64,000 nt of DNA from Nitrospirota bacterium (GTDB taxonomy: Bacteria; Nitrospirota; Nitrospiria; SBBL01; JAADHI01), in contig JAJDBU010000072.1 of NCBI GenBank assembly GCA_029261195.1, forward strand, positions 1-64,000, read 5' to 3'. Below, in pieces: positions 16,575 to 37,969 of the stretch; position 1 is the first letter of the stretch, and the number at the start of each line of letters is the position of its first letter. A program made the position numbers and the translations under genes. The notes under the pieces are model-generated. The model was given only the letters and a program-made list of their open reading frames with translations, was not told where the DNA came from and ran no database searches.

Positions 16575-16988
16575 TCAATGGCTGACAACCAAAAGGCCTT
16601 CCATGCCAAGGGCTCGATGGCCCTCCAGAATACAGAAATATCCATACCCACCTGTTTTAAATGGAACAAAGGTCATCACGGTTTTGCTTCCTTTTTCAGA
16701 AACCTCTTCTGATGTGATAAAAAAGCTAGGCAATGTAATATGGTGATTGAGCCCGTCATCATTGATCAAGGTAATCTTGACGACATCCCATGCCCGCACG
16801 GGGAGAGTTGGATTCACGACACCATCAATTTTTCCACCCACTCCGACAAAGAGTCGCCTTTCTCCCTCCATCACTGTCTTGAGCGTAAAGAATGAAACAG
16901 GATGATCCTGATCGGATGTTTCTGCCTCCGCTTTTCCACCTACAAAAAATATCACCACAATAAACAAAAATACTATTTGAGTTTTCAC
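16575..16988 (-). CDS. Secreted cupredoxin-domain copper protein
   Basis: Signal peptide; GLNHHITLPSF and YFCILEGHRALGMEGLLVV type-1 copper ligand set (H...C-x4-H-x4-M). Confidence 0.75.
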   Translation of the reverse strand: MKTQIVFLFIVVIFFVGGKAEAETSDQDHPVSFFTLKTVMEGERRLFVGVGGKIDGVVNPTLPVRAWDVVKITLINDDGLNHHITLPSFFITSEEVSEKGSKTVMTFVPFKTGGYGYFCILEGHRALGMEGLLVVSH

Positions 16989-17071: not shown

Positions 17072-18454
17072 TTATCGGTCAATCTCATGTTTCAGGCTCA
17101 ACATGTAGTCTGTTAAATCATGGAGGGCTTGTTCTTCCAAGCCATAGGCCGGCATCATGGAATCGGGGACCAGCGACTGCGGATCTTTGAAGTGCTGGAT
17201 GAACCAATCGCGGCTTCGAAGCTCTCCAATGTACGAGAGATCGGGCCCGAAGGCCTCTCCGGCCCCATGAATACGATGGCAGGCGGCGCAATCGAGTTCA
17301 TGATAGACCGCCTTGCCACGTAACACCGAGGGGCTGAGGGTCGGCAGGGAGGAAATATCCCGTATTGAAATCGCTATCAATGTGAAGACCATGGTGAGAA
17401 ACAGCCCTCCTCCGACGAAAAAAAACCGTCGAGAGATAGGGCGGCGGTCTTTGCGCCGATCAAGCCACGGGAGAAAGAAGAGGATCAGGAAAAAGAGTGA
17501 CGGCAGGATCAGCGTGCCGACCACCTCCCACGGTCCGGAAAAATATTTCAATAACTGATAGTAAAAAAGGAAGAACCACTCCGGAATCGGGTTAAACGTC
17601 GTGTCGGTTGGATTGGCCGGATCTGATAGGGGGGCCGGAAACCAGACGGCCAATCCTGCAACGATCATGAATGCGATGAGGATGCCGACGGCATCCATCG
17701 CCACCTGTTTCGGCCAAAACGGTTCCCTGATCCTGGCGGCCCTTGCCTTGTCCCATGGCCCCGCAGGGCCGACCCTTCTGAGGATGAAGAGATGAAGAGT
17801 CACAAGGAGTATCAAGAGCCAGGGCAGAAAGAGGGTGTGAAGGGCGAAAAACCGGTTCAGCGTCATCGCACCAAGATCCTGTCCTCCCCGAATGATCCTG
17901 AGCAGAGACGTGCCCACCAGGGGGAGGGTACCGACAATATTGATTCCTACCTGTGTGGCCCAATAGGCCCGCTGATCCCACGGAAGGAGGTAGCCGCTGA
18001 ACCCGAATGCAAGGGTGATGATAAAAAGGACCACCCCGACAAGCCACATCAGTTCGCGAGGCCTTTTATAGGCGCCGTAGAGAAAGACCTGGAGCATGTG
18101 AAGCCCAATCATCACCATCATGCCACTGGCACCCCAATGATGCAGTCCCCTGACAAAGGAACCAAATTCAACCTCTTCCATGATGTAGCGGATCGACTCA
18201 TGGGCATGCTCAATAGAAGGGGAGTAATAGATGGCGAGAAACATCCCGGTGATCATCTGAAGCAGGAAGAAAAAGAGGGTAATACTCCCAAAGATGTAGA
18301 CCCAGCTGGCCCCGCCCGGGATCGCTTCATCCAGGAGTGCAATCTTGATCGGCCTCAGCTTCAGACGTTCATCGAACCATCGATAGAGCATCTTCTTCAT
18401 TTTCTTTCTGAAAGCCTCACCACGATGAGGCAATCTCTTTCTGCTACAACGCAA
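17072..18454 (-). CDS. Cytochrome b (b6/petD-like fused) with C-terminal cytochrome c domain
   Basis: Heme-ligand His pairs (HHWGASGMMVMIGLH; ALHTLFLPWLLILLVTLH), PEWF Qo motif, C-terminal LDCAACHRIHGAG...MMPAYG. Confidence 0.9.
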   Translation of the reverse strand: MRCSRKRLPHRGEAFRKKMKKMLYRWFDERLKLRPIKIALLDEAIPGGASWVYIFGSITLFFFLLQMITGMFLAIYYSPSIEHAHESIRYIMEEVEFGSFVRGLHHWGASGMMVMIGLHMLQVFLYGAYKRPRELMWLVGVVLFIITLAFGFSGYLLPWDQRAYWATQVGINIVGTLPLVGTSLLRIIRGGQDLGAMTLNRFFALHTLFLPWLLILLVTLHLFILRRVGPAGPWDKARAARIREPFWPKQVAMDAVGILIAFMIVAGLAVWFPAPLSDPANPTDTTFNPIPEWFFLFYYQLLKYFSGPWEVVGTLILPSLFFLILFFLPWLDRRKDRRPISRRFFFVGGGLFLTMVFTLIAISIRDISSLPTLSPSVLRGKAVYHELDCAACHRIHGAGEAFGPDLSYIGELRSRDWFIQHFKDPQSLVPDSMMPAYGLEEQALHDLTDYMLSLKHEIDR

Positions 18455-18950
18455 TCTGACGAGAAATCCCTGCCTTGAATTCTTTATAACGCGTTAGAAT
18501 CCTGTCCCCATCCATCTTGACAGGAAGCCGGTCTAAGGGACGAGGGGCAGGCCCCTTGATGACTTTGCCATCCAGGGCGAAGACGCTGTTGTGGCAAGGG
18601 CACAGGAACGATTGTTTTTTCTGTACCCATCGATACCCACATCCAAGATGTGTACAGATCGGGGAATAGACAATGATTTGACCGGTGCTGTCCTTCGCGG
18701 CCCAGACCGATTTTTTTTTGTTGGTTTTGTGCCATCCATCCTTGACGGAGAGGACCAGTTCCAGCTCGGTCGGAACCCCTGTTCGTAGTGCTTCTACAGG
18801 ACCGATGTCCATCCAAACGGGCTTTCGCCGCTTGAATGCAGGAATGATCGTATATCCCGCAAGGGGGATCCCTATTGTTACGCCGACGAGGGCAGCGATG
18901 GCGCCGGTCGCCCTAGCCAGAAATCTCCTGCGACCTTCATGCTCTTTCAT
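18444..18950 (-). CDS. Rieske 2Fe-2S protein
   Basis: CTHLGCGYRWV...FLCPCHNSVFALDG, N-terminal Tat-like RRRFLARATG. Confidence 0.93.
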   Translation of the reverse strand: MKEHEGRRRFLARATGAIAALVGVTIGIPLAGYTIIPAFKRRKPVWMDIGPVEALRTGVPTELELVLSVKDGWHKTNKKKSVWAAKDSTGQIIVYSPICTHLGCGYRWVQKKQSFLCPCHNSVFALDGKVIKGPAPRPLDRLPVKMDGDRILTRYKEFKAGISRQIAL

Positions 18951-19723
18951 CTTCTCCTCTCATTATGTTCGGGAAGCAGCCTGGTTGACCGGAACCACAT
19001 CTCCCAGAGTGAAATAAAAATCTGAAGTAACAAGGCAAGTCCCATCAATACCCCACCGATGATCACGGTATAAGCAAAAACAGGTTGCAGTTTAGTAAAC
19101 CACCAGGAGCCGATATCAACCCATATCGCGACAAATGGCGTGGCGATCAAGAAGACACGCCACCGGACTTTGATCGCACTGAGCGCAAAAATGCCGCCGG
19201 TCAAGAAGAATATAAAACTCATTCCAAATAGATGGACGTGGGAGACGCGAACGAGGGACTTGACTGACTGACCCATATCGACCTCTGTATAAACGAGCAC
19301 TTCTTCATACGAAGTCAGGGGCTCAACCGGCATCCCGGATTCCGGGCTGTGACACATGACGCAATTACGCTCTAAAATCGGCTTGAGTGCTGAAAATCCG
19401 GATTCTTGGGCACCTGCTTCCAGCCACTGAAAGATGGTTTCTTTTTCACCTGCTGTAATATTGTCACCCATTGAACCCTTTAAGGCAGCACCAAGCCTTG
19501 TGCCTTGTTGTTTTCCATAATACTTGCCGACAACCGCAGCCACGGGTCCATCTCCCTGCTCGGTGTGGGGTTCGATTTCGATAAGATAGAGATAAGCCAA
19601 CGCAAAGAGATACCCAATGCCTATTGTCAACAAAAGGCAGGTAAAGAGTGTCTTAAGCGGCAAGGGAATGTGGCTTAGAGTCATTCGATCTTCTTTTTGT
19701 GAAGTCATTGACTCGCTCCCCAT
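18947..19723 (-). CDS. Membrane protein with single CxxCH heme site and about five TM helices
   Basis: ILERNCVMCHSPESGMP; hydrophobic segments before and after; overlaps Rieske start. Confidence 0.7.
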   Translation of the reverse strand: MGSESMTSQKEDRMTLSHIPLPLKTLFTCLLLTIGIGYLFALAYLYLIEIEPHTEQGDGPVAAVVGKYYGKQQGTRLGAALKGSMGDNITAGEKETIFQWLEAGAQESGFSALKPILERNCVMCHSPESGMPVEPLTSYEEVLVYTEVDMGQSVKSLVRVSHVHLFGMSFIFFLTGGIFALSAIKVRWRVFLIATPFVAIWVDIGSWWFTKLQPVFAYTVIIGGVLMGLALLLQIFISLWEMWFRSTRLLPEHNERRR

Positions 19724-20088
19724 TATTGTTGAGACAAAAGATAAGTTGTCAGGGCTGAGAGGTCTGCATCAGAGCCCTTCACCGGCATCATCTTTGCCCC
19801 TGGAACCATTTTTTTTGGATTCTTCATGAAAGCGATCAGCCATTCACGGTCACGCTTACTAGCAATGTGAGAGAGGTCCGGCCCCATCTTGCCGCCCTTT
19901 CCCTCAATCATATGGCACATGCCGCATCGTTTTTTTGCATAGAAGGCCTTCCCCACATCAACATCTGAATCTGAGACATGCACCGGCTCTGAGGCATACA
20001 GCGGCTGGAGGCCGGTCATCATACTGATCAATGAAAACACCATCACAATGATTAATCCTTGCATCTCCATCTCCTTTCTCCCTGACAT
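19723..20088 (-). CDS. Monoheme cytochrome c
   Basis: KKRCGMCHMIEGKGGKMGPDLSHI...MVPGAKMMPVKG. Confidence 0.85.
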   Translation of the reverse strand: MSGRKEMEMQGLIIVMVFSLISMMTGLQPLYASEPVHVSDSDVDVGKAFYAKKRCGMCHMIEGKGGKMGPDLSHIASKRDREWLIAFMKNPKKMVPGAKMMPVKGSDADLSALTTYLLSQQ

Positions 20089-20173: not shown

Positions 20174-21361
20174 CTAAAAGTTGATCATCGCTTCAGCCAG
20201 GGCCTGATAGTCCGTCGCCCCCTTGGCGTCATCTGTTGAACGATTTACCTCTAAGGCAAGCCGGAGGTTCCTCTGGAAGGAGTGAACCGCCCCGATCATC
20301 TCCTTCTGACGGACATCTTTACCGGCACCATCATTCGGATCAATCCAGTCGAAGCGGGCCAGAAGGGTCGTCTCTTTTCCTTTGAGGAACTGTTGCAGTT
20401 CTACATAAAAACTGTTCCCTTCGACATCAGACCCGGCCGCAGTCGGAACACTGTCTTCGCTACGGAAGTAGCCACCGATGATCTCTGTCCCGGAAGAAAA
20501 GATCTTGTTGGCCACCATGCCATAGCGATAGAACATATAATCATCCGGAAGGGTTCCATCGTGCCAGACCCCTCGATAGCCGTAGAGCGTAAACCCCGAG
20601 GCCAGTTCATCAAGGATGTGTTCATAGGCGAACAGGAAATCTTTTTCCCTGTCTTCATCACCCACAATTCCGGATTTCCCCCCGATGACAAGACCGTTTA
20701 GAACCTGAGCCAGGATCCGGGCGTTGCCAATCACATGTGCGACTTCGACTCCTTTCTGATTTTCTCTGATCCTGAAACGAATCGGGCTGGTGGTCAGGTC
20801 TCTTGATGAGAGGGGTTCTGGGCGGCTAATCCCGGTCGGTCGGTCGAAGCCTCCGATCCCCACCCCCTGGATCGGGTGGAATTGACCAAATCGAATGGTG
20901 GTGAAGTGCCTTGGTTTTCCAAAAAGGGCTCGAACCTGGGCAACGACCTTGATTTCATCTTCTCCTTCCCATTCGAGTTCCGTAAACGAAGAGATGTTCT
21001 CTGACAGCGCTCCGGCATAAAAGAATGTCGTGTCATGCCATTCGAACCTGTTGACGTCACTGGCATTTTCTTTTGCCTGGTAGCGTGCCCGTCCGCGACC
21101 CCGGAGGGAGAGAAAGTGCCCGACATTTGAGATGTCCTGGGCCTGATCAAATTCATCCGACATTCGGTAGCCCGCCCAGCGGAATTGCTGACCCTTTTTA
21201 TTCAAATGGGGAACCGCGGGATAATGGCAAAGGCTACAATCGGCGTTATATTTTCTCCCCCATGCAGGTAGGGCAGAGGCTTCCTGGGGGAGAAACATCC
21301 CATAAAGGCAAGAAAATCCAATGCCAAGCATGATCAAAATCCAAGTCGTTTTATGCTTCAT
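20174..21361 (-). CDS. Porin-cytochrome fusion (Cyc2-like): N-terminal single heme plus predicted outer-membrane beta-barrel
   Basis: Signal peptide, ALPAWGRKYNADCSLCHYPAVPHLNKKGQQFRWAGYRM, then alternating amphipathic strands to a C-terminal ALAEAMINF (terminal aromatic). Confidence 0.7.
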   Translation of the reverse strand: MKHKTTWILIMLGIGFSCLYGMFLPQEASALPAWGRKYNADCSLCHYPAVPHLNKKGQQFRWAGYRMSDEFDQAQDISNVGHFLSLRGRGRARYQAKENASDVNRFEWHDTTFFYAGALSENISSFTELEWEGEDEIKVVAQVRALFGKPRHFTTIRFGQFHPIQGVGIGGFDRPTGISRPEPLSSRDLTTSPIRFRIRENQKGVEVAHVIGNARILAQVLNGLVIGGKSGIVGDEDREKDFLFAYEHILDELASGFTLYGYRGVWHDGTLPDDYMFYRYGMVANKIFSSGTEIIGGYFRSEDSVPTAAGSDVEGNSFYVELQQFLKGKETTLLARFDWIDPNDGAGKDVRQKEMIGAVHSFQRNLRLALEVNRSTDDAKGATDYQALAEAMINF

Positions 21362-21831
21362 TTTACCCTCCTATTTAATTGAGGTTGTCTGGAGTGCGGT
21401 GATTGTTTCTGGAATACCGTGACGGGGCAGGAGGACAGCTGGACAACCCGCTCGGCCTGACTCCCCATCAGAAAATGGTCGAATCCCGTCCTCCCATGGG
21501 TTCCCATCATGATTAGATCGACCTTCAAGGCCTTGGATAACCGTACAATCTCGATGTGAGGGACGCCGATGCCCAACTCTGCGCTTGCCTCGATGCCGCT
21601 TTGCCTGGCCAGGATCGCCAGGTCGTTCAACAGTGCGTTTGCCTGATCTTTCATATAGGCATAGCCTTCGTCAAAAAGGGCCGTCATTTCATCCGGATGA
21701 TCGAGACGCGCCAACACGTGGACAAAGACCACATCCGCTCCAAGCTGTTTGGCCATTGATATGGCGGCCTTATTTGTCTTGTTGGACAATTCAGAAAAGT
21801 CAGTTGGAATCATCACCTTTTTGATCTTCAC
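21358..21831 (-). CDS. Universal stress protein A domain protein
   Basis: VMIPTDFSELSNKT...GVPHIEIVRLSKALKVDLIMMGTHGRTGFDHFLMGSQAERVVQLSSCPV; GTG start at 21831 behind AGGAGG. Confidence 0.9.
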   Translation of the reverse strand: MKIKKVMIPTDFSELSNKTNKAAISMAKQLGADVVFVHVLARLDHPDEMTALFDEGYAYMKDQANALLNDLAILARQSGIEASAELGIGVPHIEIVRLSKALKVDLIMMGTHGRTGFDHFLMGSQAERVVQLSSCPVTVFQKQSPHSRQPQLNRRVK

Positions 21832-21888
21832 CTGCTCCCTCCTGTTCTTTGTAAAGCGTTTCGCTATTACCAATTAGCAATACAGATA

Positions 21889-21904
21889 GCAATACAGATG
21901 CCAA
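21889..21904 (-). promoter_or_regulatory. Sigma-54 (-24/-12) promoter candidate for usp/porin-cytochrome/bc operon
   Basis: TGGCATCTGTATTGCT on minus strand (consensus TGGCAC-N5-TTGCW; GG-N10-GC), about 58 nt upstream of usp GTG. Confidence 0.75.
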
Positions 21905-22299: not shown

Positions 22300-24450
22300 T
22301 TAGTCTTTCGATAAGGCGTAAGAAAACCAAAGCCCAATCACACTGACTTTGTAATTGGGGCTTTCCGCCCCGCTTGCTAAGACGTTTGAAACGGTATTCA
22401 CGGCAAGGCCGTCAAGCGTCCAATCCCTCGTCTTATACGCTTCGTAAAAGTATCGTGCCTTCATCGTCAAACGCGGGTTTATTTGATAATTCGCAGAGAG
22501 CCTTGCACTATAAAGTCTGGTTTTTAGCTCAGGAAAGGTTTCTGCGGTGCGGCCGAGTGTGCGTGCCTCAATTGCTCCGATTGATTTTGAATAAGTAAAG
22601 TCAAGCCCCACGTTCCAAAGGCCGTTTATATTTGAAAAAGAAAACCCGCTGCTGAGTGTGTTAATCATATCCCGATTGTGAGCAAACCAATCCGGTGCGC
22701 CAAAGCTCTGGCTTCCTGCTTGATCAGACTTGATCTTTTCGTGACTGAATAGGGTATAAAAACTGCCATTTTCAAAAAGTAGTAGAGAGACATCAATGAC
22801 GATATTCAAGCGATCACTACCTGTCAGACCCAGGACCGAATCTTTATAGTCATCTGAATTGACTTCTGAGGACAAAGCAACATTCAAACGCTGATGTGGT
22901 GTGAGTGAAAACTTTAGCCTTGCTTGGTCTCGGGTCCGATCCGCCAGGTTGAATTTTCTCAAAAGTGGATTTTGAAAGGTCTCAATTTCATCGGTTCCCC
23001 TGTAACGCTTACCATCGCGATCAGCATGTAAGATCTCCAGGCTGACGGGTCTTTTTCCTTTGTTGCCTGAAGCGGATATTTTTATCCAGACCGTTTTCTC
23101 TTCAGTTTTTGAGACTTCTTGAAAGTTCCGTTTATAGATTTCGTAGTTGAGGCCACCTGAAAATCGTTTCCGACGTCCAAAACGATAATTACTTTTGAGA
23201 TCGATATTCTGTCGTTGAAAGCTGTAGGGGATATTTGTTCGTGTATCGGAAAAAAAAGTATCCGATTCTATGAAATCGTAGACTTTTCGCGCGGTTTTAT
23301 TCTTGCGATTATTGAGGTCATAGAGCAGATTGAGTGTCAGCTTCGCCCTAGGTCTCGAATGTAATCGAAGATGGAGTCGGGTGGTATTTACTTTTGCGTC
23401 CAATGAAGAAATCGGCAATGGACCTACCAGGTTTGCATTGATAGTAGAGGGGATAAAGGCCTCATCCTGAGTCATACGGCCGAAGGAGAGCATGCCGCTC
23501 GCCTGTGTTTGAATCGTGAGTTGGTAAGTTCCTGACAGGGTGATTTGATGTGCCTGATTATCGGGCGCAAGCGCACTTCGCCCGCGGTCGCCCCCGGTGG
23601 TCAGGGGGGTAAATGGATTTTCCCAGGTGATGCTTGGATGTTGACTGTCGAAAAAAGAGCCATAATATTCAAGACTTAGAAGTCCTTGTTTATTCGTGTA
23701 AGTGATGGATGCATCAATTTCATCCGTGGTGTAATCAATCGGTTTCGCTAAGATTGAAGTGAAGATGATAAAATTTCCCGTGTGAAGACCTTGGCCTTCA
23801 CGTCTTTCCCGCCGGTAATCAAGCACATATTTAAGTTGGGGCGTCAGAAGATACGAAAACCCAAACTGGGTATTTTCACGCTCATGCGCTATCGGCATTG
23901 GACGAAGCGCGTTTGTGAGTTGACTCATTCCCCCCGTACTTGTAGCCCTCGTCCAGCCTGTAGGCAAAGTCATGTTTGTGCCGCCCGATCCGAGAAAGGG
24001 GCTTTTCCCGGAATCGTCTCCTTGTTTTTGGAGTAAGTCATAAGCCAATCTCACTTCGTATTGCCCCTGCTGCCCCCCCTCTATTTTCAGGCTGCGTGAA
24101 TCAAGGCCAAGGTCGGAACCGAGCATTTCCCAATAGGAATTTCCCTTCCCCCAATAACGAAGGTCGATTTCTCCAATCGCATAAGGCCCTTTGTCTTCGA
24201 GTCCACGATAGTCCCCGAATTTGAAGGAATCATCCGAAATATAGGCCGAACCCAGTTCAAACCGCCCGTGCAAACCTTTTGTATGAGGGCACAATTCACA
24301 TATCCATCCTGAGGGTTTAATGTCTTCCTTAAGCATGTTTTTTTCCACGGACTCAGCGGTGGAGGAAGAAGGCGTTAGGACATGAGGAAGAAGAAACACC
24401 AGTATGCTTGCAACATTGATCAGATTATTTCGTAAACGTGCTGTGGGCAT
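22300..24450 (-). CDS. mtrB: MtrB/PioB-family decaheme-associated outer membrane beta-barrel
   Basis: N-terminal CELC (CxxC) motif, FELGSAYISDDSFKFGDYRGLEDKGPYAIGEIDLRYW, long repeated beta-strand pattern; start at MPTARLRNN rather than 24624. Confidence 0.85.
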   Translation of the reverse strand: MPTARLRNNLINVASILVFLLPHVLTPSSSTAESVEKNMLKEDIKPSGWICELCPHTKGLHGRFELGSAYISDDSFKFGDYRGLEDKGPYAIGEIDLRYWGKGNSYWEMLGSDLGLDSRSLKIEGGQQGQYEVRLAYDLLQKQGDDSGKSPFLGSGGTNMTLPTGWTRATSTGGMSQLTNALRPMPIAHERENTQFGFSYLLTPQLKYVLDYRRERREGQGLHTGNFIIFTSILAKPIDYTTDEIDASITYTNKQGLLSLEYYGSFFDSQHPSITWENPFTPLTTGGDRGRSALAPDNQAHQITLSGTYQLTIQTQASGMLSFGRMTQDEAFIPSTINANLVGPLPISSLDAKVNTTRLHLRLHSRPRAKLTLNLLYDLNNRKNKTARKVYDFIESDTFFSDTRTNIPYSFQRQNIDLKSNYRFGRRKRFSGGLNYEIYKRNFQEVSKTEEKTVWIKISASGNKGKRPVSLEILHADRDGKRYRGTDEIETFQNPLLRKFNLADRTRDQARLKFSLTPHQRLNVALSSEVNSDDYKDSVLGLTGSDRLNIVIDVSLLLFENGSFYTLFSHEKIKSDQAGSQSFGAPDWFAHNRDMINTLSSGFSFSNINGLWNVGLDFTYSKSIGAIEARTLGRTAETFPELKTRLYSARLSANYQINPRLTMKARYFYEAYKTRDWTLDGLAVNTVSNVLASGAESPNYKVSVIGLWFSYALSKD

Positions 24451-24467
24451 GCAATGCTCCTTCTCCT

Positions 24468-25472
24468 CTATCTCGTTAAGCGTGCACCCGATGGATGATT
24501 TGAGCCATGCACTTGAGTGTGGCAATTCATGCACCCTCTCGCTAAAAGCAAAGCAGAGCCTCCAGAGGGCGGAAGTCCACTCGGTAATCCAGAAACACTG
24601 GGATGTCCGGCCCGGGAATGACATTGCTGACAGAGAAACGGCGGACGTTTACTCAAAAGCGAAGGATGGTTAGAGCCGTGGACCTGATGGCAAAGCGTAC
24701 AATCCTCTGATGCGGGCGCATGTTCCCAGAGGAAGGGGCCGCGTTTCTCGGTATGGCAGCTATAACAGGTTTCGTTCAGGGTTTGACGAATGAGCTGGAA
24801 TTCAGTGTTTGATCCATGGGCTTGATGGCAAGCCGTGCAGGCCATTTTTCCGTAACGAATCGGATGGGAGCTGGCCTTAAAACTGTCAGCACGTTTCTGT
24901 TGATGACAAGTAAAACAGACTTTTGGCTGATCTTTGATGCTAAAAACCGGGTCACGTTCTGCATGAATGCGATGACAGGATGCGCAGGAAACATCTTCTC
25001 TTTCATGGGTGCTGCCATGCCAGGCCATTCCGAGCTTCGATTTGTGACAAGTCTCACAGACCTGGTTTTGTTCACGAATCGATGTACGGGCTCCGAGGCC
25101 GAAGCTTCGGATACCAATATTTTTTTCCCCGGTCATCACAGCCTCGGGGTGTAAGGCTCCTGGGCCGTGACAACTTTCACATTCGAGACCGGCAAAAGGT
25201 GTTCGGGCATCCGAAGTTTCAGCATGTCGTGTTTTAAAGATGGAAAGCACCGGAAACGCTGACCCTTCTCCGTGACATTGAAGGCAGAGATCCGAGCCAT
25301 ACTCGCTATATTGAGGTGGAGCCTCTTTTTTCGGCGCATCGCTCATGGCACCCTGTAAGGCATCCTGACTGAAGAGAAGTTCTGGCCAAAAAACCATTAA
25401 AAATACCTCCGCAACGGAAAATAAAATCGTGACAAAAAAAACCGTTCTGAGTATTTTGGCCATTGTAATCAA
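24468..25472 (-). CDS. mtrA: DmsE/MtrA-family decaheme c-type cytochrome
   Basis: Ten CxxCH counted: CLQCH CESCH CETCH CASCH CFTCH CTACH CYSCH CTLCH CQQCH CMNCH; N-terminal signal/TM. Confidence 0.92.
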   Translation of the reverse strand: MITMAKILRTVFFVTILFSVAEVFLMVFWPELLFSQDALQGAMSDAPKKEAPPQYSEYGSDLCLQCHGEGSAFPVLSIFKTRHAETSDARTPFAGLECESCHGPGALHPEAVMTGEKNIGIRSFGLGARTSIREQNQVCETCHKSKLGMAWHGSTHEREDVSCASCHRIHAERDPVFSIKDQPKVCFTCHQQKRADSFKASSHPIRYGKMACTACHQAHGSNTEFQLIRQTLNETCYSCHTEKRGPFLWEHAPASEDCTLCHQVHGSNHPSLLSKRPPFLCQQCHSRAGHPSVSGLPSGLPPSGGSALLLARGCMNCHTQVHGSNHPSGARLTR

Positions 25473-25498
25473 CCCCTTCTAAGCTTTGCTCTCTCTCC

Positions 25499-25545
25499 AA
25501 AGCCGTCTTAGCTCTGATTTTTCCGAGCAGGTATCAGACGGCTTT
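25499..25545. repeat. Intercistronic inverted repeat between mtrC-like and mtrA-like genes
   Basis: aaagccgtct / agacggcttt, 10-bp arms, 27-nt loop. Confidence 0.65.
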
Positions 25546-25550
25546 TATTT

Positions 25551-27734
25551 TTACTGAAACTGATGAACGGTTTTGATATCTGCGAGCGCACCTTTTCCGT
25601 GACAGACCGCACAGGTTTCGACCACTAGGCCTGCCGAGGTAGAAGTCAATGCCCCGTTCGCTGCCTGAGTCACATCGAAAGCCCCACCATTCTGCTTCAT
25701 ATGTTCAGTTGCCAAGATGCTGGTGTGGCAGGAGGAGCAGACGGCTGTGTTCGGAGTGATATTGACATCATCCAATGGGTCGGCAAGGTTGACACCGGTA
25801 TCAACCGTTGTTGCCAGGACACCTGTTCCAACGGGATAGTAGGTATCGCCCAGGTGGCATTGGGAACAATTGTTCAGGTTACCCGGAAATACCACCCCCG
25901 TGAAATCGTGAAGACGACTGCCGAATCCATAAACGTAAAGCCCCATCCCGTCAGCGCCTGCATGAAGGGCATGAATCATCCGTTTAAAATCGATGGATTC
26001 TTCCTTCTTTCCGTCGGGGGTCGTTGTTGGATCGGCAGGACGCCGACTCACATCGGTGTTATTTGCATTATGGCAACCGAGGCAGAGATCGACATTGTCG
26101 GTTCGGTTTGAACCATGGAGACTCAGCGATTTATGACAATTGTTGCATTTGTCCATGTCGACAACGGCTCTCCTTTTCACAGGCGTCGCATCCGTGATGG
26201 AAAAGAAGTCCGTCGCTCCCTTCACAGCGATCCTCTCGACAATGCCGTCACTATCGACATCTACCGCTGGATGTCCCTCTAATGTCGCCATACCCGAACC
26301 TGTGGCGCCCGTCGGAATCGCAACAGTAGAAGTCATTGTGAAAGTTCCATCACCATTGGCAATGGCTGCGCCTCCTAAAGGATTAAGGCTAACCATTGAA
26401 GCAGGCGTTTGACCACTTCCCGTGTTATCGAAATCACTTGAACTCCAGGCAAGATCAATTGCTAGACGACTTGCCCCTCCTCCCTGAACAAATGGCGCAT
26501 CGCTTTGAACATTGTAGGCTGCATCGCCATTACTTGGGTCTGTGACCGAGAAGGTAATCATGGGGAATGTCCCTGGGGTTCCATTGGTGACCGAGTGAAT
26601 ATTAAACTTAAATGCGGCGGCGGCAGTATCAGTAAGGATGGCGTGACTTGTGTCGATTCGCCCGATCAAACCGCCATCACTGTGGCAGCTAGTGCAGTCT
26701 GCATTACTGGCAACTACAATATTGGCGAGGCTATGATTTGCGCCAGTTGCAAAGTTCACGTCGTCGTGGCAGGAAGCGCAGGCTTCCATCGTGGGGGTCT
26801 TAAGCCAATTCTGGGCATCCGGCGTTTCGGTGTCGGTTTCGTTGTGACAGGTTCGGCAGTTGCGGATATCCTGAGGCCAAACGACTTTGGAATAGTCATG
26901 TTTCGTGTCTCGGAAGCCCCATATTGCATATTCTCCACCAGCGACGACGCTGGGCAATGTTGATCCCCGGTGTATTTTGTGGATCATGACCTTGAAATCG
27001 AGGGTGTTTCCACTATTTGCATCGGTAGAACCAGGATTGTGACAGCTCACACAATATTCGGTATCGAAGCGGGCGCTGCCATGCATGGATAATTTGTCGT
27101 GGCAGACATTGCAGGATTCCGTCTTAACAATTTCGCGGGTGAAAATTCCTGTTGTTGCGCCATCCGAGGGACGAAAAGTGTAGACCGCGTTGCCTATTGA
27201 GGTGGCCCCGCCGCGGATTTCAAATCCAACACGGTGAGTCAGTGCCGCATCGTAGGGTAGGGCGGCATTGTTCAAGTCGACTGCAAAGGTATAGCTGTAA
27301 GTGCCGTCCAGGTGATCTACAAGGGTTCCGCTTGCGCCGCTTTCAGTTGCCGCCTGGATTTGAGCAACCGTGCCCGATCCCCCTCCTCCCGGCTCTTCGG
27401 TCCGCGTGATGTAGTTTTGCCACTCACTGGCACCGCCATTAATGCCCGGTACCAAACGCGAAATAGAAAAACTGATGTTACTGTCCGATAAACCGGTAAC
27501 CAGATTCTCTTTGTCATCCTTAAGGGTGAACTGAACCACTGCGGGGCTGTTGATCGTTACATCGGTGATGCTTGGCGTAATTTTTCCGGCATCAGCAAGT
27601 CGTATGCTTGCAGATCTTCCCGGCTGTCCCTGAGGACCTACAGCGCCCTGATCACCATCGCTGCATCCCAAAAAAATGAGTGCGGGTAAGAGCAGAAGGA
27701 AAGCCCCTTGAAATTTACATAAGCGATTCATCAT
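25551..27734 (-). CDS. mtrC: OmcA/MtrC-family decaheme outer-surface lipoprotein cytochrome
   Basis: Lipobox LIFLGCSDGD; ten CxxCH counted: CNVCH CVSCH CRTCH CASCH CTSCH CNNCH CLGCH CSQCH CSSCH CAVCH; ORF extends to 27755 but AAAGGAGG favours a start at 27734/27731. Confidence 0.92.
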   Translation of the reverse strand: MMNRLCKFQGAFLLLLPALIFLGCSDGDQGAVGPQGQPGRSASIRLADAGKITPSITDVTINSPAVVQFTLKDDKENLVTGLSDSNISFSISRLVPGINGGASEWQNYITRTEEPGGGGSGTVAQIQAATESGASGTLVDHLDGTYSYTFAVDLNNAALPYDAALTHRVGFEIRGGATSIGNAVYTFRPSDGATTGIFTREIVKTESCNVCHDKLSMHGSARFDTEYCVSCHNPGSTDANSGNTLDFKVMIHKIHRGSTLPSVVAGGEYAIWGFRDTKHDYSKVVWPQDIRNCRTCHNETDTETPDAQNWLKTPTMEACASCHDDVNFATGANHSLANIVVASNADCTSCHSDGGLIGRIDTSHAILTDTAAAAFKFNIHSVTNGTPGTFPMITFSVTDPSNGDAAYNVQSDAPFVQGGGASRLAIDLAWSSSDFDNTGSGQTPASMVSLNPLGGAAIANGDGTFTMTSTVAIPTGATGSGMATLEGHPAVDVDSDGIVERIAVKGATDFFSITDATPVKRRAVVDMDKCNNCHKSLSLHGSNRTDNVDLCLGCHNANNTDVSRRPADPTTTPDGKKEESIDFKRMIHALHAGADGMGLYVYGFGSRLHDFTGVVFPGNLNNCSQCHLGDTYYPVGTGVLATTVDTGVNLADPLDDVNITPNTAVCSSCHTSILATEHMKQNGGAFDVTQAANGALTSTSAGLVVETCAVCHGKGALADIKTVHQFQ

Positions 27735-27789
27735 CAACCTCCTTTGCATTTTCATTCAAATGATTCTCTTTTTCTTACCACTTAGGCTT

Positions 27790-28120: not shown

Positions 28121-28561
28121 TTAATCGGACGGTTCCTGAGATGTTTCTTGCCTTTTATTCAATGTGTCCCTTAATCGCTTGGTTTCCCGGTAGGCACGAT
28201 CCAGCGCGAGTCCTTTCTCGACCGCTGCTTCCAATATTTCCAGATTTTTAAATGGTTTTGTGAGATAGTCGAAAAGACCTTCTCGAACTACACGGACGAA
28301 ATTACTCTCATCCGGATATCCAGTCATCAGGATTGCAACTTGTCCGGGACGATCCTTCAGCATATCCTGCAAAATATTCAGCCCCTGTTCATCCGGCAGA
28401 CGCTGGTCCATCAGGATAAGATTAAAGTCCTTTTCCCGAAAGAGGCGCCGGGCCTCCGATCCCGTGGATGCGAGTTGAAGATCAATCGGCTTGCCGCGAA
28501 AGAGTCTTTCAAATAATTTTAAAGTGTAGGGGTCGTCATCAACGACAAGGATCCTAAGCAT
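28121..28561 (-). CDS. Stand-alone REC-domain response regulator
   Basis: ILVVDDDPYTLKLFERLFRGKPI...LILMDQRLPDEQGL...VAILMTGYPDE...FDYLTKPF. Confidence 0.9.
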   Translation of the reverse strand: MLRILVVDDDPYTLKLFERLFRGKPIDLQLASTGSEARRLFREKDFNLILMDQRLPDEQGLNILQDMLKDRPGQVAILMTGYPDESNFVRVVREGLFDYLTKPFKNLEILEAAVEKGLALDRAYRETKRLRDTLNKRQETSQEPSD

Positions 28562-28590: not shown

Positions 28591-29040
28591 TTAGTTCCCT
28601 TTATGTGAACTATATACAAAGGTTGAACCATCTTTTCTGATTGCAATCACTCTGAAGTCGTCTTTCCTGTTTCCCTGTTCCATTCCGGGCGCCCCTGTCG
28701 GCATCCCCCGAACAGCCAAGCCCCTTATATCGGGTCTTTCTTTTAGCAGTCGCCGAAGATCACTGACAGGCACATGGCCTTCGAGCACATATCCCTCCAC
28801 GACCGCCGTATGGCAAGAACTTAAATGCTGCGGTATTCCAAATTTTTTTTTGAGGGATGCCACATTTTCGACTGGCTTTTCAGTCACATTGAAGCCATTG
28901 TCATTCATATAGCGGGTCCAGTTTGAGCAACATCCACAAAATCGGCTTTTGTAGACCGTGATCTCTTTTGCTTGAACCACTGTCCAAACATTCTGGACCA
29001 GAAACGCAACGACCAATACAAACAAGATTTTTTTTATCAT
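28591..29040 (-). CDS. DUF411 family (CcgAII-type) putative metal-binding periplasmic protein
   Basis: ITVYKSRFCGCCSNWTRYMNDNGFNVTEKPVENVASLKKKFGIPQHLSSCHTAVVEGYVLEGHVPVSDLRRLLKERPDIRGLAVRGMPTGAPGME. Confidence 0.9.
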   Translation of the reverse strand: MIKKILFVLVVAFLVQNVWTVVQAKEITVYKSRFCGCCSNWTRYMNDNGFNVTEKPVENVASLKKKFGIPQHLSSCHTAVVEGYVLEGHVPVSDLRRLLKERPDIRGLAVRGMPTGAPGMEQGNRKDDFRVIAIRKDGSTFVYSSHKGN

Positions 29041-29147: not shown

Positions 29148-29163
29148 AGCAATCGGAATGCCA
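29148..29163 (-). promoter_or_regulatory. Sigma-54 (-24/-12) promoter candidate for DUF411-REC operon
   Basis: TGGCATTCCGATTGCT on minus strand (GG-N10-GC). Confidence 0.75.
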
Positions 29164-29305: not shown

Positions 29306-30688
29306 TTATGATGTAGGGGGTTTCCCCCACCGTTTCATCCGAACATACAGGTTTTGGCGTGGTATGCCGCTTAATCGGGCGGCCTCAGAGATATTGCCGT
29401 CGGTGGCCTTCAGAAGACGTTTGAGATAGTCAGACTCAAATACTTCACGCTCTTTCTGGTACAGGGAGATCTCTCCGGATTTCAGTATCGGAGCTTGCGT
29501 CTGCTGTGCTTTATTTTCAATCTGGTCTGGATATTCAATCTGAAATGCCTTGATCGGTCCGCCGGAATGGAGTGCGACAATCCGCTCAATGGTGTGTTGG
29601 AGTTGTCGGACATTTCCCGGCCACGAAATCGTTTCCAATACCTCTATGGCCTCAGGCGTAATAGGACCAACCTTCTTGCCGAAGCGGGTATTGAACTGGT
29701 CGAGAAAATAAAGCGCCAGAAGGGTAATATCTCCCCCTCTCTCTCGCAAGGGAGGAATTTTAATCGTGATCACATTAATCCGGTAGAATAGATCTTCTCT
29801 GAAATGCCCCTTTCTGACCTCCTCAATAAGCCGTTTGTTCGTTGCGAATATCAAACGGAAATTGCTGGAACGCAGCTTTGAGCTGCCAAGTCGAGAAAAG
29901 GTCCTTTCCTGTAGCACATGGAGCAGACTGCTTTGCATTTTTTCGCTCATATTGGAGATTTCGTCGAAAAAGAGAGTCCCGCCATCGGCCTTCTCAAAAT
30001 AACCTGGCGTGGTCTTGATGGCGCCGGTAAACGCCCCCCGCTCGTAACCGAAAAGGGCGCTCTCTAGGAGTGATTCGGACAAACCCCCGCAGTTGACCAC
30101 CAGAAAATCTCTTTTGGCATTTTGACTCAAGTCATGGAGATATTTTGCGGCTAGGCTTTTTCCGGTGCCGCTCTCCCCTTCCAGCAACACCGTTGCATCG
30201 AGGGAGGCGATCTGCTCCATTTGCGCCATCAGTTTCGCCATCGCCGGTGAATGGCCGATGAGCGTTAGTCCGGCCTTCCGAGTGTCGAGGACATTGCGCA
30301 AGCGCTTGATTTCACGGTATGCGCGATCAAGCTCAAGGGCCTTTTCGATCACGGCCTCCAATGCTTCCAGATTCTTGAATGGCTTGGTCAGGTAGTCAAA
30401 GAGGCCTTCCCGAACGGCCCGGATGGCGTCACTGACATCGGCATATCCGGTAATCAGGATGGCGACCTGCTGCGGGCGTTCCTTCCGCATCTCCTTCAGG
30501 ATTTCGAGTCCCCGTTCTCCGGGAAGCCGCTGGTCCATCAGGATAAGGTTGTAGTCATGTGTTTGAAAGAGCCGGCGGGCCTCCGAACCGTCCGATGCAA
30601 GATCAAGCTTGATCGGTTTTCCCCGGAAAAGTCTTTCGAATAATTTTAAGGTGTAGGGGTCGTCATCGACGACCAGAATTTTAACCAT
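29306..30688 (-). CDS. Sigma-54-dependent response regulator (REC-AAA+-Fis HTH, NtrC family)
   Basis: REC domain; GESGTGKSLAAKYLH, GAFTGA loop, GTLFFDEISNM, RRLPGNVRQL-type SWPGNVRQL, Fis-type HTH EAARLSGIPRQNLYVRMKR. Confidence 0.95.
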   Translation of the reverse strand: MVKILVVDDDPYTLKLFERLFRGKPIKLDLASDGSEARRLFQTHDYNLILMDQRLPGERGLEILKEMRKERPQQVAILITGYADVSDAIRAVREGLFDYLTKPFKNLEALEAVIEKALELDRAYREIKRLRNVLDTRKAGLTLIGHSPAMAKLMAQMEQIASLDATVLLEGESGTGKSLAAKYLHDLSQNAKRDFLVVNCGGLSESLLESALFGYERGAFTGAIKTTPGYFEKADGGTLFFDEISNMSEKMQSSLLHVLQERTFSRLGSSKLRSSNFRLIFATNKRLIEEVRKGHFREDLFYRINVITIKIPPLRERGGDITLLALYFLDQFNTRFGKKVGPITPEAIEVLETISWPGNVRQLQHTIERIVALHSGGPIKAFQIEYPDQIENKAQQTQAPILKSGEISLYQKEREVFESDYLKRLLKATDGNISEAARLSGIPRQNLYVRMKRWGKPPTS

Positions 30689-32171
30689 GCACTGTCTCAT
30701 GAAGGTTGTCGGGCAGCCAAAGCGTAAACGCTGCGCCGCCTCCGGGATGATTGGTGGCGGTAATCAGCCCGCCATGCAGGATCGCAACATGCTGGACGAG
30801 TGACAAGCCCAAGCCGGTTCCTCTTGAACGGGTGGTAAAAAAAGGGGTGAAGATTTTATCGATGATTTCTTCGGAGAGACCCGGCCCCTTGTCCAGAACA
30901 GAAAGAGCCCATCCTTCTCCCCCTTCTCCGTCCCTTGATTCTGCGGAAAGGCGAACGGTCACCTTTCCCTTCTCGTCTGCCTGAAATGCATTTGAGATGA
31001 GGTTAAACAGGGCGTGACGGATCAGGATCGGGTCCACTTCAAGCATGACCGGCTGTTCCGGGAGTTCTGCTTCCATTGAGAGTGCATGTGTGGCACTCTG
31101 CTGGCAGAGGGCCATGATCTCCCCAATCAAGGACTTCATTTCAGTCGGTTTGCGATCGAAACATGAAACTTTTGTAAATTCCATCATACGTTGCAGGAAG
31201 CTTCGGCAATCCTCTCCTGCGTTCTGGATATCCTCCAGCAATTCTCTTGTATTTTCCGGGTTCTTTCCCTCCCGCAGGGCGAGTTGCGCCATGTTGACGA
31301 CACCGACCAGGGGATTGTTGATCTGATGCGCGATTTCCCCGATCATCAGGCCCATCGCCGAGAGTTTTTCAAGCTGTACAATTCTTTGATGTTCCATGTT
31401 TAATTTAGAAAACTGTGTCTCGATCTCTTCCTTGCGTTTTGTAATGTCCCTCATGATACCCACGGAAATCCATTTTCCGGAAATTTCCGAAGCAGAGAAG
31501 GCATGTTCCATGGGAAATTCAGTCCCATTCTTCCTTTGCACCATCGTTTCAAAGGTATGTCCCAACAAAGGTTCCGTTCCTGTTCTCCTGAGTGCTTCGA
31601 CATGTTCCCGAAACACGCCATGATATTTTTCAGGGATGATTGTCGAGAGCATGCTGCGTCCGATGACTTCCGAGGCCTGATAGCCGAACAGCTTTTCTGC
31701 AGCGGTATTCCAATACAATACAGTTATTTCGTGGTCGATCATGGTAATTGCATCCAGAGACTTTTCAGTGACAGTACGAAGTTTAGCTTCGCTCTCGCGA
31801 AGCGCCGTCTCCGCCATCTTTGATGCTATGCTTGCCGACCGATATTGATTAACCAGAATTGCGGTGATCCAGATGACCACCAGTGCGAGCGCCCGATTCA
31901 AAAGCACAACCCAGAGGACACCCCCCGGAGGAGATAAAAAATAACCCAGAAGAGTCAGTAATGAAGCGGCAACAGCCGTTAGATAAGTAAAGCGAGCCTG
32001 CGGAGAAAAAAAGGAGAGAAGCACCAGAAGCACGTAAGGCACCCCGCCTGCGTATCCCAGTTGAATGGCAAGATCAAATACAAAGATCCCGTAGCCCCAC
32101 ATGATGATAAGAATAATCAGCTGCCTGTGGGGGAACTCTCCTCTCAAGGCAATTTTCACACGATCGTTCAT
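30681..32171 (-). CDS. Membrane PAS-domain sensor histidine kinase
   Basis: N-terminal TM helices, PAS, EIAHQINNPLVGVVNMAQ H-box, NLISNAFQAD N-box, GTGLGLSLVQHV G-box; overlaps the regulator gene. Confidence 0.93.
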   Translation of the reverse strand: MNDRVKIALRGEFPHRQLIILIIMWGYGIFVFDLAIQLGYAGGVPYVLLVLLSFFSPQARFTYLTAVAASLLTLLGYFLSPPGGVLWVVLLNRALALVVIWITAILVNQYRSASIASKMAETALRESEAKLRTVTEKSLDAITMIDHEITVLYWNTAAEKLFGYQASEVIGRSMLSTIIPEKYHGVFREHVEALRRTGTEPLLGHTFETMVQRKNGTEFPMEHAFSASEISGKWISVGIMRDITKRKEEIETQFSKLNMEHQRIVQLEKLSAMGLMIGEIAHQINNPLVGVVNMAQLALREGKNPENTRELLEDIQNAGEDCRSFLQRMMEFTKVSCFDRKPTEMKSLIGEIMALCQQSATHALSMEAELPEQPVMLEVDPILIRHALFNLISNAFQADEKGKVTVRLSAESRDGEGGEGWALSVLDKGPGLSEEIIDKIFTPFFTTRSRGTGLGLSLVQHVAILHGGLITATNHPGGGAAFTLWLPDNLHETVHG

Positions 32172-35402: not shown

Positions 35403-36692
35403 ATGAAATGTTTTTGGATTTTGCCTTTATTTCTGACAGTGATGCTTTTGCCTGCCCTGTTTCCCGAAAAAGGGAGAGCGGAAGACAAGCTTTTTTTATC
35501 CTCGCTCATTGAGGAAGCGCTAGAGGCCAATCCGAATATTGCGGCGGCCAATGCTGCGTGGGAGGCGCACTTAGCACGCATTGCTCAGGTGAATGTCCTG
35601 GATGACCCTGAGATCGGTTTCGACACCTGGAATATTCCAAATACCCTTGATTTAAGTCAAACACGCAATTGGATTTTTTTTGCCCGACAACGTTTTCCGG
35701 CGGCGGGAACGCTGAAGCTACGCGCGGAGCTGGCAGAAACTGTGGCGACGCGGGCCGAAGCGCAAATCAGCATGACGGTTAGATCCATCATCGCGGCGGT
35801 CAAAATTGCTTATGACTCACTTTATCTGGCGCACAAAGCCATTGAGGTCAATGCAGAACACCTCGATATTTTGAAACGTTTCGAGGAAATTGCCGAAATT
35901 AAGTATCAAACCGCCGCAGTCTCAGAGCAGGATGTGCTCAAGGCGCGCGTGGCCCTGGCACGTTTGGAAAACGAGCAAGTCACTCTTGAACAGCGCCAGC
36001 ACACCGCGCGTGCGGCTTTGAATACCCTTTTGAAACGTTCGCCTCGTTCTCCACTGGCAATACCCGAAAACTTGCGGCGAATTGACCTGCCCTCAGACTT
36101 AGTGGCCCTGGCATCCAAAGCCCTGCGTGTACGACCTGAATTGAAAGCAGCCAAAGCGGCGATTAAACGTAGTGAGCAAGAGCTTGCGCTGGCGAAGCTT
36201 AAATTTAAGCCCGACTATCAAGTCTCCGTTAAGCGATTTCAAAATCAGGGCACGCCCCAGCCGAGTGGCTGGGGTATTTCGGCCAGCATCAATCTGCCCT
36301 GGTTTTTTCATCAAAAACACGACCATCGGATTCAGGAAACACGGCATCGCACGACACAGCAAGAGGCGATGTACGAAAACCTGAAAGATCAGACCCGTTT
36401 TGCCATAGAAGATTTGATTGTAAAGATTCAAACGGCGGGTCGGCTTGCGGCGCTCTTTCAGGAGAATGTGATCCCACAAGCAGAACAGTCGGTGGCCTCA
36501 GCACAAACGGGCTATCAGACCGACCAGGTTGATTTTCTGGATCTGCTCGAAAGTCAGCGTCAGTTGGTGACTTTTCGGCTTGAATATTTTCAGGCGCTGG
36601 CCTTGCAAAATCAGGAGGTGGCGCGTTTGGAACAGGTGATGGGTTCAGATCTCTCTGATTTTAAAAATAAAACGGATGGAGGTTTAAAATGA
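35403..36692 (+). CDS. CusC/CzcC-like outer membrane efflux protein
   Basis: LIEEALEANPNIAAANAAWEA..., DPEIGFDTW, YQTDQVDFLDLLESQRQLV. Confidence 0.88.
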   Translation: MKCFWILPLFLTVMLLPALFPEKGRAEDKLFLSSLIEEALEANPNIAAANAAWEAHLARIAQVNVLDDPEIGFDTWNIPNTLDLSQTRNWIFFARQRFPAAGTLKLRAELAETVATRAEAQISMTVRSIIAAVKIAYDSLYLAHKAIEVNAEHLDILKRFEEIAEIKYQTAAVSEQDVLKARVALARLENEQVTLEQRQHTARAALNTLLKRSPRSPLAIPENLRRIDLPSDLVALASKALRVRPELKAAKAAIKRSEQELALAKLKFKPDYQVSVKRFQNQGTPQPSGWGISASINLPWFFHQKHDHRIQETRHRTTQQEAMYENLKDQTRFAIEDLIVKIQTAGRLAALFQENVIPQAEQSVASAQTGYQTDQVDFLDLLESQRQLVTFRLEYFQALALQNQEVARLEQVMGSDLSDFKNKTDGGLK

Positions 36693-37969
36693 AACGATTC
36701 TTTGTTGTGAGATTGCTTAGCTGTGTTGTTTTGAATATGAGTCCTTTCGGAGGCGCTGCTTTTGCGCAAATGGATCAGATGAAAGGCATGGAGGGTGGAA
36801 AGATGTCTTTGCCGATGTCTCAAACATCCTCCGGAAATAAAGTACCCGAAGGACAAGTGCCCGTGATGCTCACGCCGCACAAACAAAAACTGGTGGGTAT
36901 AAAGACCAAAGCTGTACGCCAAAAAGTCATGACTAAACGGATCCGCACCATCGGGCGGGTGGATTATGACGAACGGACCTTAACGACCGTGACGACCAAA
37001 ATTGAGGGCTGGATCGAAGCGCTCACCGTGGATGCGACGGGCATGGCCGTTAAAAAAGGCAAACCGCTCTTTTCAGTCTACAGCCCGAAACTGCTTCAAA
37101 CGCAGGAGGAATACCTCTTGGCTTTTAAAACGCAAAAAAAAATGAAGCAAAAAAAAGTCAGAGAAAACCTGATTTCCGCCAGTCGCCGACGCTTGCTGCT
37201 TTGGGATGTCACGCCGCAACAGGTTCGGGAACTGGAAAAACGCGGAAAAGTGATTCGTGCCTTGCCCGTACTCTCTCCTGCCAGCGGTATTATCACGGAA
37301 AAAATGGCCTTGCCCGGCATGTATGTCAAACCCGGCATGGCACTCTATAAAATCGCGGATCTATCCAAGGTCTGGGTGTTGGTCGATATTTATGAACACG
37401 AGCTGGTCTGGATTGAACTTGGACAGCTGTCTGAACTCACTCTGGCCTCCCTGCCCGGCCAGGTCTTTCGGGGAAAAGTGACTTACATCTATCCCTATCT
37501 GAACGAGGGCAGTCGAACGGCGACCCTTCGTATTGAGTTGGATAACAAAGACGGAAAACTTAAACCCGGCATGTATGCGAATGTTACTTTTACCATAAAG
37601 GCAGCGGAAGGCCTGGTCGTGCCGGAAAGTGCCGTACTCGATTCCGGTCTTCGACAAGTCGCTTTTGTGGCGAAAGCGGGAGGACTATTTGAGCCCCGTG
37701 TGATTAAAACCGGACGGCGCTTCAATCACGAGATTGAAATACTGGAAGGTCTGGAAGCGGGTGAACAGGTCGTCACGCAGGGCACTTTTTTGATCGATTC
37801 CGAAAGTAAACTCATGGCCTCCACGGAAGGCATGATGGGCCTCGTGGGTATGGGCGACTGGAAAATGGAAGGCTCCAAAATGGGCGGCATGGACATGGGA
37901 GATGGCAAGATGGACAAGATGCCGAACATGCCGAACATGCCAAACATGAATGGAATGAATCATGATTGA
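36689..37969 (+). CDS. cusB: CusB-like periplasmic adaptor with Met/His-rich termini
   Basis: VGIKTKAVRQKVMTKRIRTIGRVDYDERTL, SGIITEKMALPGMYVKPGMALYKIADLSKVWVLVDIYE; Met-rich C-terminal tail. Confidence 0.88.
   Translation: MKRFFVVRLLSCVVLNMSPFGGAAFAQMDQMKGMEGGKMSLPMSQTSSGNKVPEGQVPVMLTPHKQKLVGIKTKAVRQKVMTKRIRTIGRVDYDERTLTTVTTKIEGWIEALTVDATGMAVKKGKPLFSVYSPKLLQTQEEYLLAFKTQKKMKQKKVRENLISASRRRLLLWDVTPQQVRELEKRGKVIRALPVLSPASGIITEKMALPGMYVKPGMALYKIADLSKVWVLVDIYEHELVWIELGQLSELTLASLPGQVFRGKVTYIYPYLNEGSRTATLRIELDNKDGKLKPGMYANVTFTIKAAEGLVVPESAVLDSGLRQVAFVAKAGGLFEPRVIKTGRRFNHEIEILEGLEAGEQVVTQGTFLIDSESKLMASTEGMMGLVGMGDWKMEGSKMGGMDMGDGKMDKMPNMPNMPNMNGMNHD

Follow-up and report, generated by a model that had tools for sequence, protein, structure and literature searches.

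A complete, apparently borrowed MtrCAB-type conduit beside a Cyc2-type and bc-complex operon in a Nitrospirota genome, and its likely use in electron uptake

Results and discussion

We analyzed a 64-kb stretch of DNA (the window; positions 1 to 64,000 of contig JAJDBU010000072.1) from a Nitrospirota bacterium, in which the genes mtrC, mtrA and mtrB of a porin-cytochrome conduit lie next to an operon encoding a Cyc2-type protein and a Rieske/cytochrome b-c (bc) complex. We lean towards the reading that the genome already had a Cyc2/bc-complex module to which a borrowed MtrCAB became connected, most likely to take up electrons from Fe(II), Mn(II) or minerals. MtrCAB itself is a known family; the novelty, as far as we searched, lies in finding its canonical form in Nitrospirota and in the setting with Cyc2 and a bc complex.

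The mtrCAB genes

The three genes are adjacent on one strand with intact frames, in the order C-A-B known from Shewanella (Table 1). A first-pass annotation, made from the letters of the window, had claimed a complete conduit with ten CxxCH motifs in each cytochrome, a lipobox on the MtrC/OmcA-like protein and a CxxC near the N-terminus of the barrel, and each of these features was found again, the CxxC as SGWICELCPH close to the mature MtrB N-terminus. Shuffled MtrA and MtrC sequences contained on average 0.08 and 0.02 CxxCH, respectively, with a maximum of 2 compared to the 10 in each real protein. The longest mtrB frame, from 24624, overlaps MtrA, and the signal peptide starts at ATG 24450. 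Each protein scored above the cut-off of its NCBIfam family: 551.7 bits for MtrC with TIGR03507 (OmcA/MtrC; cut-off 209.3), 284.5 bits for MtrA with TIGR03508 (DmsE/MtrA; 192.2) and 470.4 bits for MtrB with TIGR03509 (MtrB/PioB; 240.05), the last also matching Pfam MtrB_PioB with 513.9 bits. In a PDB search, the Mtr complex of Shewanella baltica (6R2Q) matched MtrB with 301 bits and MtrA (6R2Q_A) with 282 bits over nearly their full length, while the top match of MtrC was MtrF (3PMQ, 209 bits). An AlphaFold2 (AF2) model of MtrB (mean predicted local distance difference test score, pLDDT, 84.4) superposed on the Shewanella barrel, 6r2q_B being the top Foldseek match (E 1.3e-52, TM 0.85/0.94, root-mean-square deviation 2.6). 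Since all three proteins exceeded the family cut-offs and matched known Mtr structures, and the barrel modeled as an MtrB-type porin, the genes almost certainly encode a complete MtrCAB-type porin-cytochrome conduit at the sequence level.

Phylogeny and origin of the conduit

In a GTDB-wide scan, the best relatives of MtrA all came from Pseudomonadota (52-57% identity for the top matches, compared to 32-42% in its own phylum), and many of their loci are arranged mtrC-mtrA-mtrB. Identity to the nearest relatives was 50-57% for MtrA, 38-51% for MtrC (most Pseudomonadota MtrC) and 33-40% for MtrB; these relatives are the MtrCAB of Marinobacter, Ectothiorhodospiraceae and Burkholderiales (groups 3, 4 and 7 of Baker, assigned by taxon). 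Within Nitrospirota, MtrB relatives were present in 24 of 296 genomes, our genome counted, and were at most 32% identical even within the genus; MtrC-family proteins were present in 14 of 396 genomes. The MtrC-family genes at the Nitrospirota loci read in detail stand beside a porin-sized protein of about 407-431 aa and other multiheme cytochromes, or are solitary. At none of these other loci did an MtrC-family gene adjoin MtrA-MtrB, and the sampled Nitrospirota genomes yielded no further canonical mtrCAB.

The trees, in which MtrC-less Pseudomonadota loci stood in for named MtoA or PioA references, grouped both MtrA and MtrC with MtrCAB cytochromes and not with periplasmic-only enzymes. MtrA was nested in the MtrCAB clade (support 100/99), together with loci L031 and L037 (99/96), and MtrB fell on its own, long terminal branch within a clade of MtrC-linked, CxxC-bearing barrels (Shimodaira-Hasegawa-like approximate likelihood ratio test 99). 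The CxxC was present in all MtrC-linked Pseudomonadota barrels examined except that of L077, where MtrC is located on the far side of MtrB, and in none of the barrels of our genome's own phylum; the barrels without MtrC that we examined mostly lacked it and branched outside the MtrC-linked clade. Because MtrC and the CxxC are present, and given the tree position, we rule out a PioAB/MtoAB identity and set the conduit apart from the Nitrospirota clades. Grouping MtrA with its own phylum was rejected (p 0.003). The same grouping of MtrC was rejected with p 8e-8, a value that overstates the case since the constraint also unites other Nitrospirota sequences, and for MtrB the approximately unbiased (AU) test was marginal (p 0.059). 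Vertical descent from Nitrospirota MtrAB is therefore rejected for MtrA and MtrC, and marginally for MtrB.

We consider it very probable from these comparisons that a Nitrospirota lineage obtained MtrCAB horizontally from a Pseudomonadota-type pool. The acquisition was apparently not recent, because in codon use, GC content and GC at third codon positions (GC3) mtrCAB does not stand out from the other window genes; this ordinary composition, together with the long end branches, excludes a recent transfer and indicates that the acquisition is old. A chimeric assembly or a Pseudomonadota contaminant as the source of the mtrCAB segment would account for all three genes being closest to Pseudomonadota and missing from the close relatives sampled, yet we regard it as highly improbable: the contig is 80 kb long, the flanking genes on either side of the segment share 58-75% identity with those of family relatives, GC3 and codon use are ordinary, and the best Pseudomonadota MtrB found was no more than 40% identical, so that a contaminant could not have come from any lineage sampled.

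The downstream operon

Seven tightly packed genes of the same strand follow directly downstream of mtrCAB and form an operon that runs from a universal stress protein (USP) to a cupredoxin. The Rieske and cytochrome b genes at 17072-18950 confirm the association with a quinol:cytochrome c type complex noted in the first-pass annotation, their products carrying the CTHLGC, CPCH and PEWF motifs and the corresponding Pfam domains. The span given there, 22300-27755, covers the conduit but leaves out the rest of the locus, and the annotation missed the Cyc2-type gene, the two-component and sigma-54 context and the horizontal origin.

By the published description, a Cyc2 protein joins a monoheme cytochrome and a porin of 16 strands in one chain of at least 365 aa, with AXPXFAR[Q/K][T/Y] before and PXL after the CXXCH (PMC8406198). 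The product of 20174-21361 has this architecture: its 395 aa contain a single CxxCH, its AF2 model (pLDDT 80.7) shows 16 strands, and its matches are porins. Its motif, ALPAWGRKY, agrees at seven of nine positions (F to W and A to G) and is followed by PHL after the CxxCH; the relatives have AIPAFARKY or AIPAWARKY. As a rusticyanin, the cupredoxin scored 24.5 bits with NCBIfam TIGR03095 (E 2.6e-5), below the cut-off of 146.7.

Orthologs of the monoheme cytochrome c, 45-64% identical, lie beside Cyc2 or MtrAB in relatives. The predicted membrane protein p258, which matched no family and no PDB entry, is retained as its partner in relatives and in L095, a Lysobacterales contig where the p258 homolog is 4 kb from mtrAB. 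In relatives from the same order (L184, L187, L242), the same cytochrome c is located beside mtrA-mtrB without mtrC, along with p258 and/or the cupredoxin. It thus seems that the cytochrome c and p258 regularly accompany outer-membrane conduits, and p258 may be an uncharacterized inner-membrane partner of such electron conduits. The pairing of p258 (18947-19723; L095:2150-2923; L187; L184; L171) with the monoheme cytochrome c, next to Cyc2 or MtrAB, extends over two phyla.

Regulators, promoter-like sites and insertion point

Genes for a response regulator (RR2), a DUF411 protein, an NtrC-type sigma-54 activator and a PAS sensor histidine kinase are located upstream of mtrCAB, and sigma-54-like sites precede the USP-Cyc2-bc operon and the DUF411-RR2(-mtrCAB) genes (Table 1). 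Exact TGGCAY-N5-TTGCW occurs twice in the 64 kb, compared to 0.12 expected, a count that is suggestive only since this form was chosen after seeing the hits; with two mismatches allowed there is no excess (30 sites in the window, 32.6 expected). The case for these sites rests mainly on conserved positions in the relatives G305 and G308, where the motif again precedes the orthologs of the Cyc2, cytochrome c and stress-protein genes (loci L172 and L247), and the activators of the relatives are 72-75% identical and encoded beside Cyc2 or cytochrome c. We conclude that mtrCAB and the Cyc2-bc operon are probably under shared control.

At locus L247 of the family relative G308, mtrCAB is missing and the RR2 and USP genes are neighbors, separated by the sigma-54 site. 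The window mtrCAB sits exactly where these two genes meet, and the best reading of this arrangement is that mtrCAB was inserted into a resident locus between RR2 and USP.

Direction of electron flow

In the pathway that we propose, MtrA would be held inside the MtrB barrel with the lipoprotein MtrC capping the outside, by analogy with 6R2Q. Electrons taken from Fe(II), Mn(II), minerals or electrodes outside the cell would enter through MtrC and MtrA, with Cyc2 as the entry for soluble Fe(II), and would be passed on to the monoheme cytochrome c and/or the cupredoxin; electron exchange among these partners of the locus is inferred. Some of the electrons would then run downhill to a cytochrome-bd-like oxidase, and the dedicated Rieske/cytochrome b-c complex would drive others uphill to quinone to supply carbon fixation, with the PAS kinase and the sigma-54 activator controlling the locus. 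Whether MtrCAB, the dedicated bc-type complex and Cyc2 under one sigma-54 circuit form a native uptake device that feeds reverse electron transport is a further step, which we put forward tentatively.

The rest of the genome, which is 99% complete, is compatible with parts of this scheme. The genome search found no heme-copper oxidase (COX1), which rules out such an enzyme as the downhill partner, but four large cytochrome-bd-like proteins were present, as were two gene sets for 2-oxoacid:ferredoxin oxidoreductase. The host may well be an autotroph. This pattern of oxidase and carbon-metabolism genes resembles the description of Candidatus Manganitrophaceae (PMC9040806). On contig 64 (L235), a second Rieske/cytochrome b set comes after an 831-aa bd-like protein fused to cytochrome c, and the arrangement resembles terminal-oxidase complexes described for Manganitrophaceae.

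Net electron flow would, on balance, be inward, because the locus combines a Cyc2-type protein with high-potential partners, no free CymA-type quinol dehydrogenase was found in the genome (the sole PF03264 match was partial and within a 554-residue multiheme frame), and Acidithiobacillus ferrooxidans offers a precedent, since its uphill path relies on Cyc2, rusticyanin and a dedicated bc1 complex (PMC2621215). Several points weigh against electron uptake by a borrowed, co-regulated conduit. The matches to the Cyc2 motif (AxPxFAR reads ALPAWGR) and of the cupredoxin are partial, no sigma-54 site lies directly before mtrC within two mismatches, and the AU test of MtrB was marginal, as given above. 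Moreover, bc complexes are able to run forward too. Both MtrC and the MtrB CxxC are features of characterized metal reducers, and C42 of MtrB is required for Fe(III) reduction (PMC12175506).

Outward flow, from quinol through the Rieske/cytochrome b-c complex and cytochrome c to MtrA, MtrC and finally Fe(III), Mn(IV) or another extracellular acceptor, would make the locus part of an anaerobic or low-oxygen respiration like that of Shewanella. The canonical MtrC and CxxC-type MtrB agree with such a role, as do the further large multiheme cytochromes in the genome and the missing heme-copper oxidase, and MtrCAB has been studied mostly as a reductive system (PMC8805035). We nevertheless consider it unlikely, given that an exit through Rieske/bc is at high potential, a poor fit at neutral pH for Fe(III) oxides, and that the locus encodes Cyc2, a cupredoxin and a monoheme cytochrome c as partners instead of CymA, NetBCD or PdsA. 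Less probable still is a bidirectional valve, taking up electrons with oxygen and dumping them when oxygen is scarce, with Cyc2 reserved for uptake from soluble Fe(II); in its favor, oxidative operation of MtrCAB has been demonstrated under artificial laboratory conditions (PMC8805035), and Cyc2 and MtrCAB share a locus under apparently one regulator. We retain electron uptake as the favored role, and infer, as the first-pass annotation had suggested, that the conduit serves in metal or mineral redox chemistry.

Comparison with known systems

The locus shares with Shewanella MtrCAB the three proteins, their order, the 10+10 hemes, the lipobox, the CxxC and the barrel fold, but differs in phylum and in its partners, with Cyc2, a cupredoxin and Rieske/cytochrome b-c in place of a free CymA or an FccA/CctA-type protein, none of which was found here. 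None of the Pseudomonadota MtrCAB loci that we fetched has a bc complex within 10 kb, unlike the window. MtoAB and PioAB, which are implicated in Fe(II) oxidation, likewise consist of MtrA and MtrB homologs but are without MtrC. The other Nitrospirota clusters belong to the same phylum, and those of order relatives share the cytochrome c, p258 and cupredoxin partners, whereas they have MtrAB without an adjacent MtrC, or an MtrC-like protein beside porin-sized (about 407 aa) and 9-heme proteins, and fall in other clades. The rus/petI system of A. ferrooxidans is similar in outline, with Cyc2, a cytochrome c, a cupredoxin and a dedicated bc complex; it has no MtrCAB and uses a heme-copper oxidase, compared to the bd-like oxidases and the b6-type bc complex with fused cytochrome c of our genome.

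The assignment of the host to class Nitrospiria is borne out by the Nitrospira probe Ntspa662 (PMC5256632), whose exact target was present in 17 of 146 genomes of its class, all from a single family; the three hits inspected lie in 16S rRNA. The class Nitrospiria also holds Nitrospira and, according to the literature, the Mn(II)-oxidizing Manganitrophaceae, and the locus pairs MtrCAB with Cyc2 in this class. We found no canonical mtrCAB of Nitrospirota in the literature searched, which held no preprints and few subscription papers. In a 2022 survey, mtrCAB was confined to Proteobacteria, Acidobacteria and Gemmatimonadetes (PMC8805035), and the window would add Nitrospirota as a fourth phylum. 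A review of the quinone oxidoreductases of extracellular electron transfer counts homologs of CymA, CbcL/MtoC/MtrH and ImcH, with bc1/Rieske unmentioned (PMC6295460); a bc complex in this function would be new. The determinants of the direction of MtrCAB electron flow become testable in a lineage other than Shewanella and, should the uptake reading be true, MtrCAB would be a natural oxidase conduit and not just a reductase conduit.

Features of the window and other loci

The features of the locus are collected in Table 1. No tRNA or RNA family was found in the 64-kb window.

Table 1. Genes and promoter-like sites of the mtrCAB locus (window positions)
Feature	Position	Strand	Characteristics
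PAS sensor histidine kinase	30681-32171	-	HATPase_c, HisKA, PAS
NtrC-type sigma-54 activator	29306-30700	-	Sigma54_activat 217 bits; receiver; Fis helix-turn-helix
Sigma-54-like site TGGCATTCCGATTGCT	29148-29163	-	108 bp before DUF411; precedes DUF411-RR2(-mtrCAB)
DUF411 protein	28591-29040	-	Pfam DUF411 88 bits
Receiver-domain response regulator RR2	28121-28561	-	Pfam Response_reg 78 bits
MtrC/OmcA-type outer-membrane decaheme lipoprotein	25551-27755	-	734 aa; 10 CxxCH; lipobox FLGC, residues 28-31; TIGR03507
MtrA-type decaheme cytochrome, DmsE/MtrA family	24468-25472 (likely start ATG 25463)	-	334 aa; 10 CxxCH; TIGR03508
MtrB barrel with N-terminal CxxC	22300-24450	-	716 aa; signal peptide; TIGR03509; AF2 model
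Sigma-54-like site TGGCATCTGTATTGCT	21888-21903	-	just before USP gene/USP-Cyc2-bc operon
Universal stress protein, first operon gene	21358-21873	-	Pfam Usp 98 bits; syntenic in L171, L247, L248
Cyc2-type fused monoheme cytochrome-porin	20174-21361	-	395 aa; one CxxCH (CSLCH); AF2 model; porin folds in PDB
Periplasmic monoheme cytochrome c	19723-20088	-	Pfam Cytochrom_C 45 bits
p258, predicted membrane protein	18947-19723	-	one CxxCH; no family above cut-off
Rieske iron-sulfur protein	18444-18950	-	Pfam Rieske 39.8 bits; CTHLGC, CPCH
Cytochrome b (b6/PEWF type) fused to C-terminal monoheme cytochrome c	17072-18400	-	Pfam Cytochrome_B 185 bits and Cytochrom_C; PDB cytochrome b6 matches
Small cupredoxin, weak rusticyanin/plastocyanin similarity	16575-16988	-	Pfam Copper-bind 22.2 bits

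CusCBA-type metal efflux genes, named from their translations, are located at 35403-41057, near the cupredoxin/DUF411 locus. Elsewhere in the genome, a cluster on contig 55 (L232, about 66.5-78 kb) encodes 11-, 5-, 4- and 3-heme cytochromes, NHL propellers and a 632-aa protein of no family, and is perhaps a further porin-cytochrome conduit. Another, on contig 60 (L233, about 29-40 kb), encodes 10-, 8- and 5-heme cytochromes together with a protein with cyclic-nucleotide-binding and Fe-S domains.

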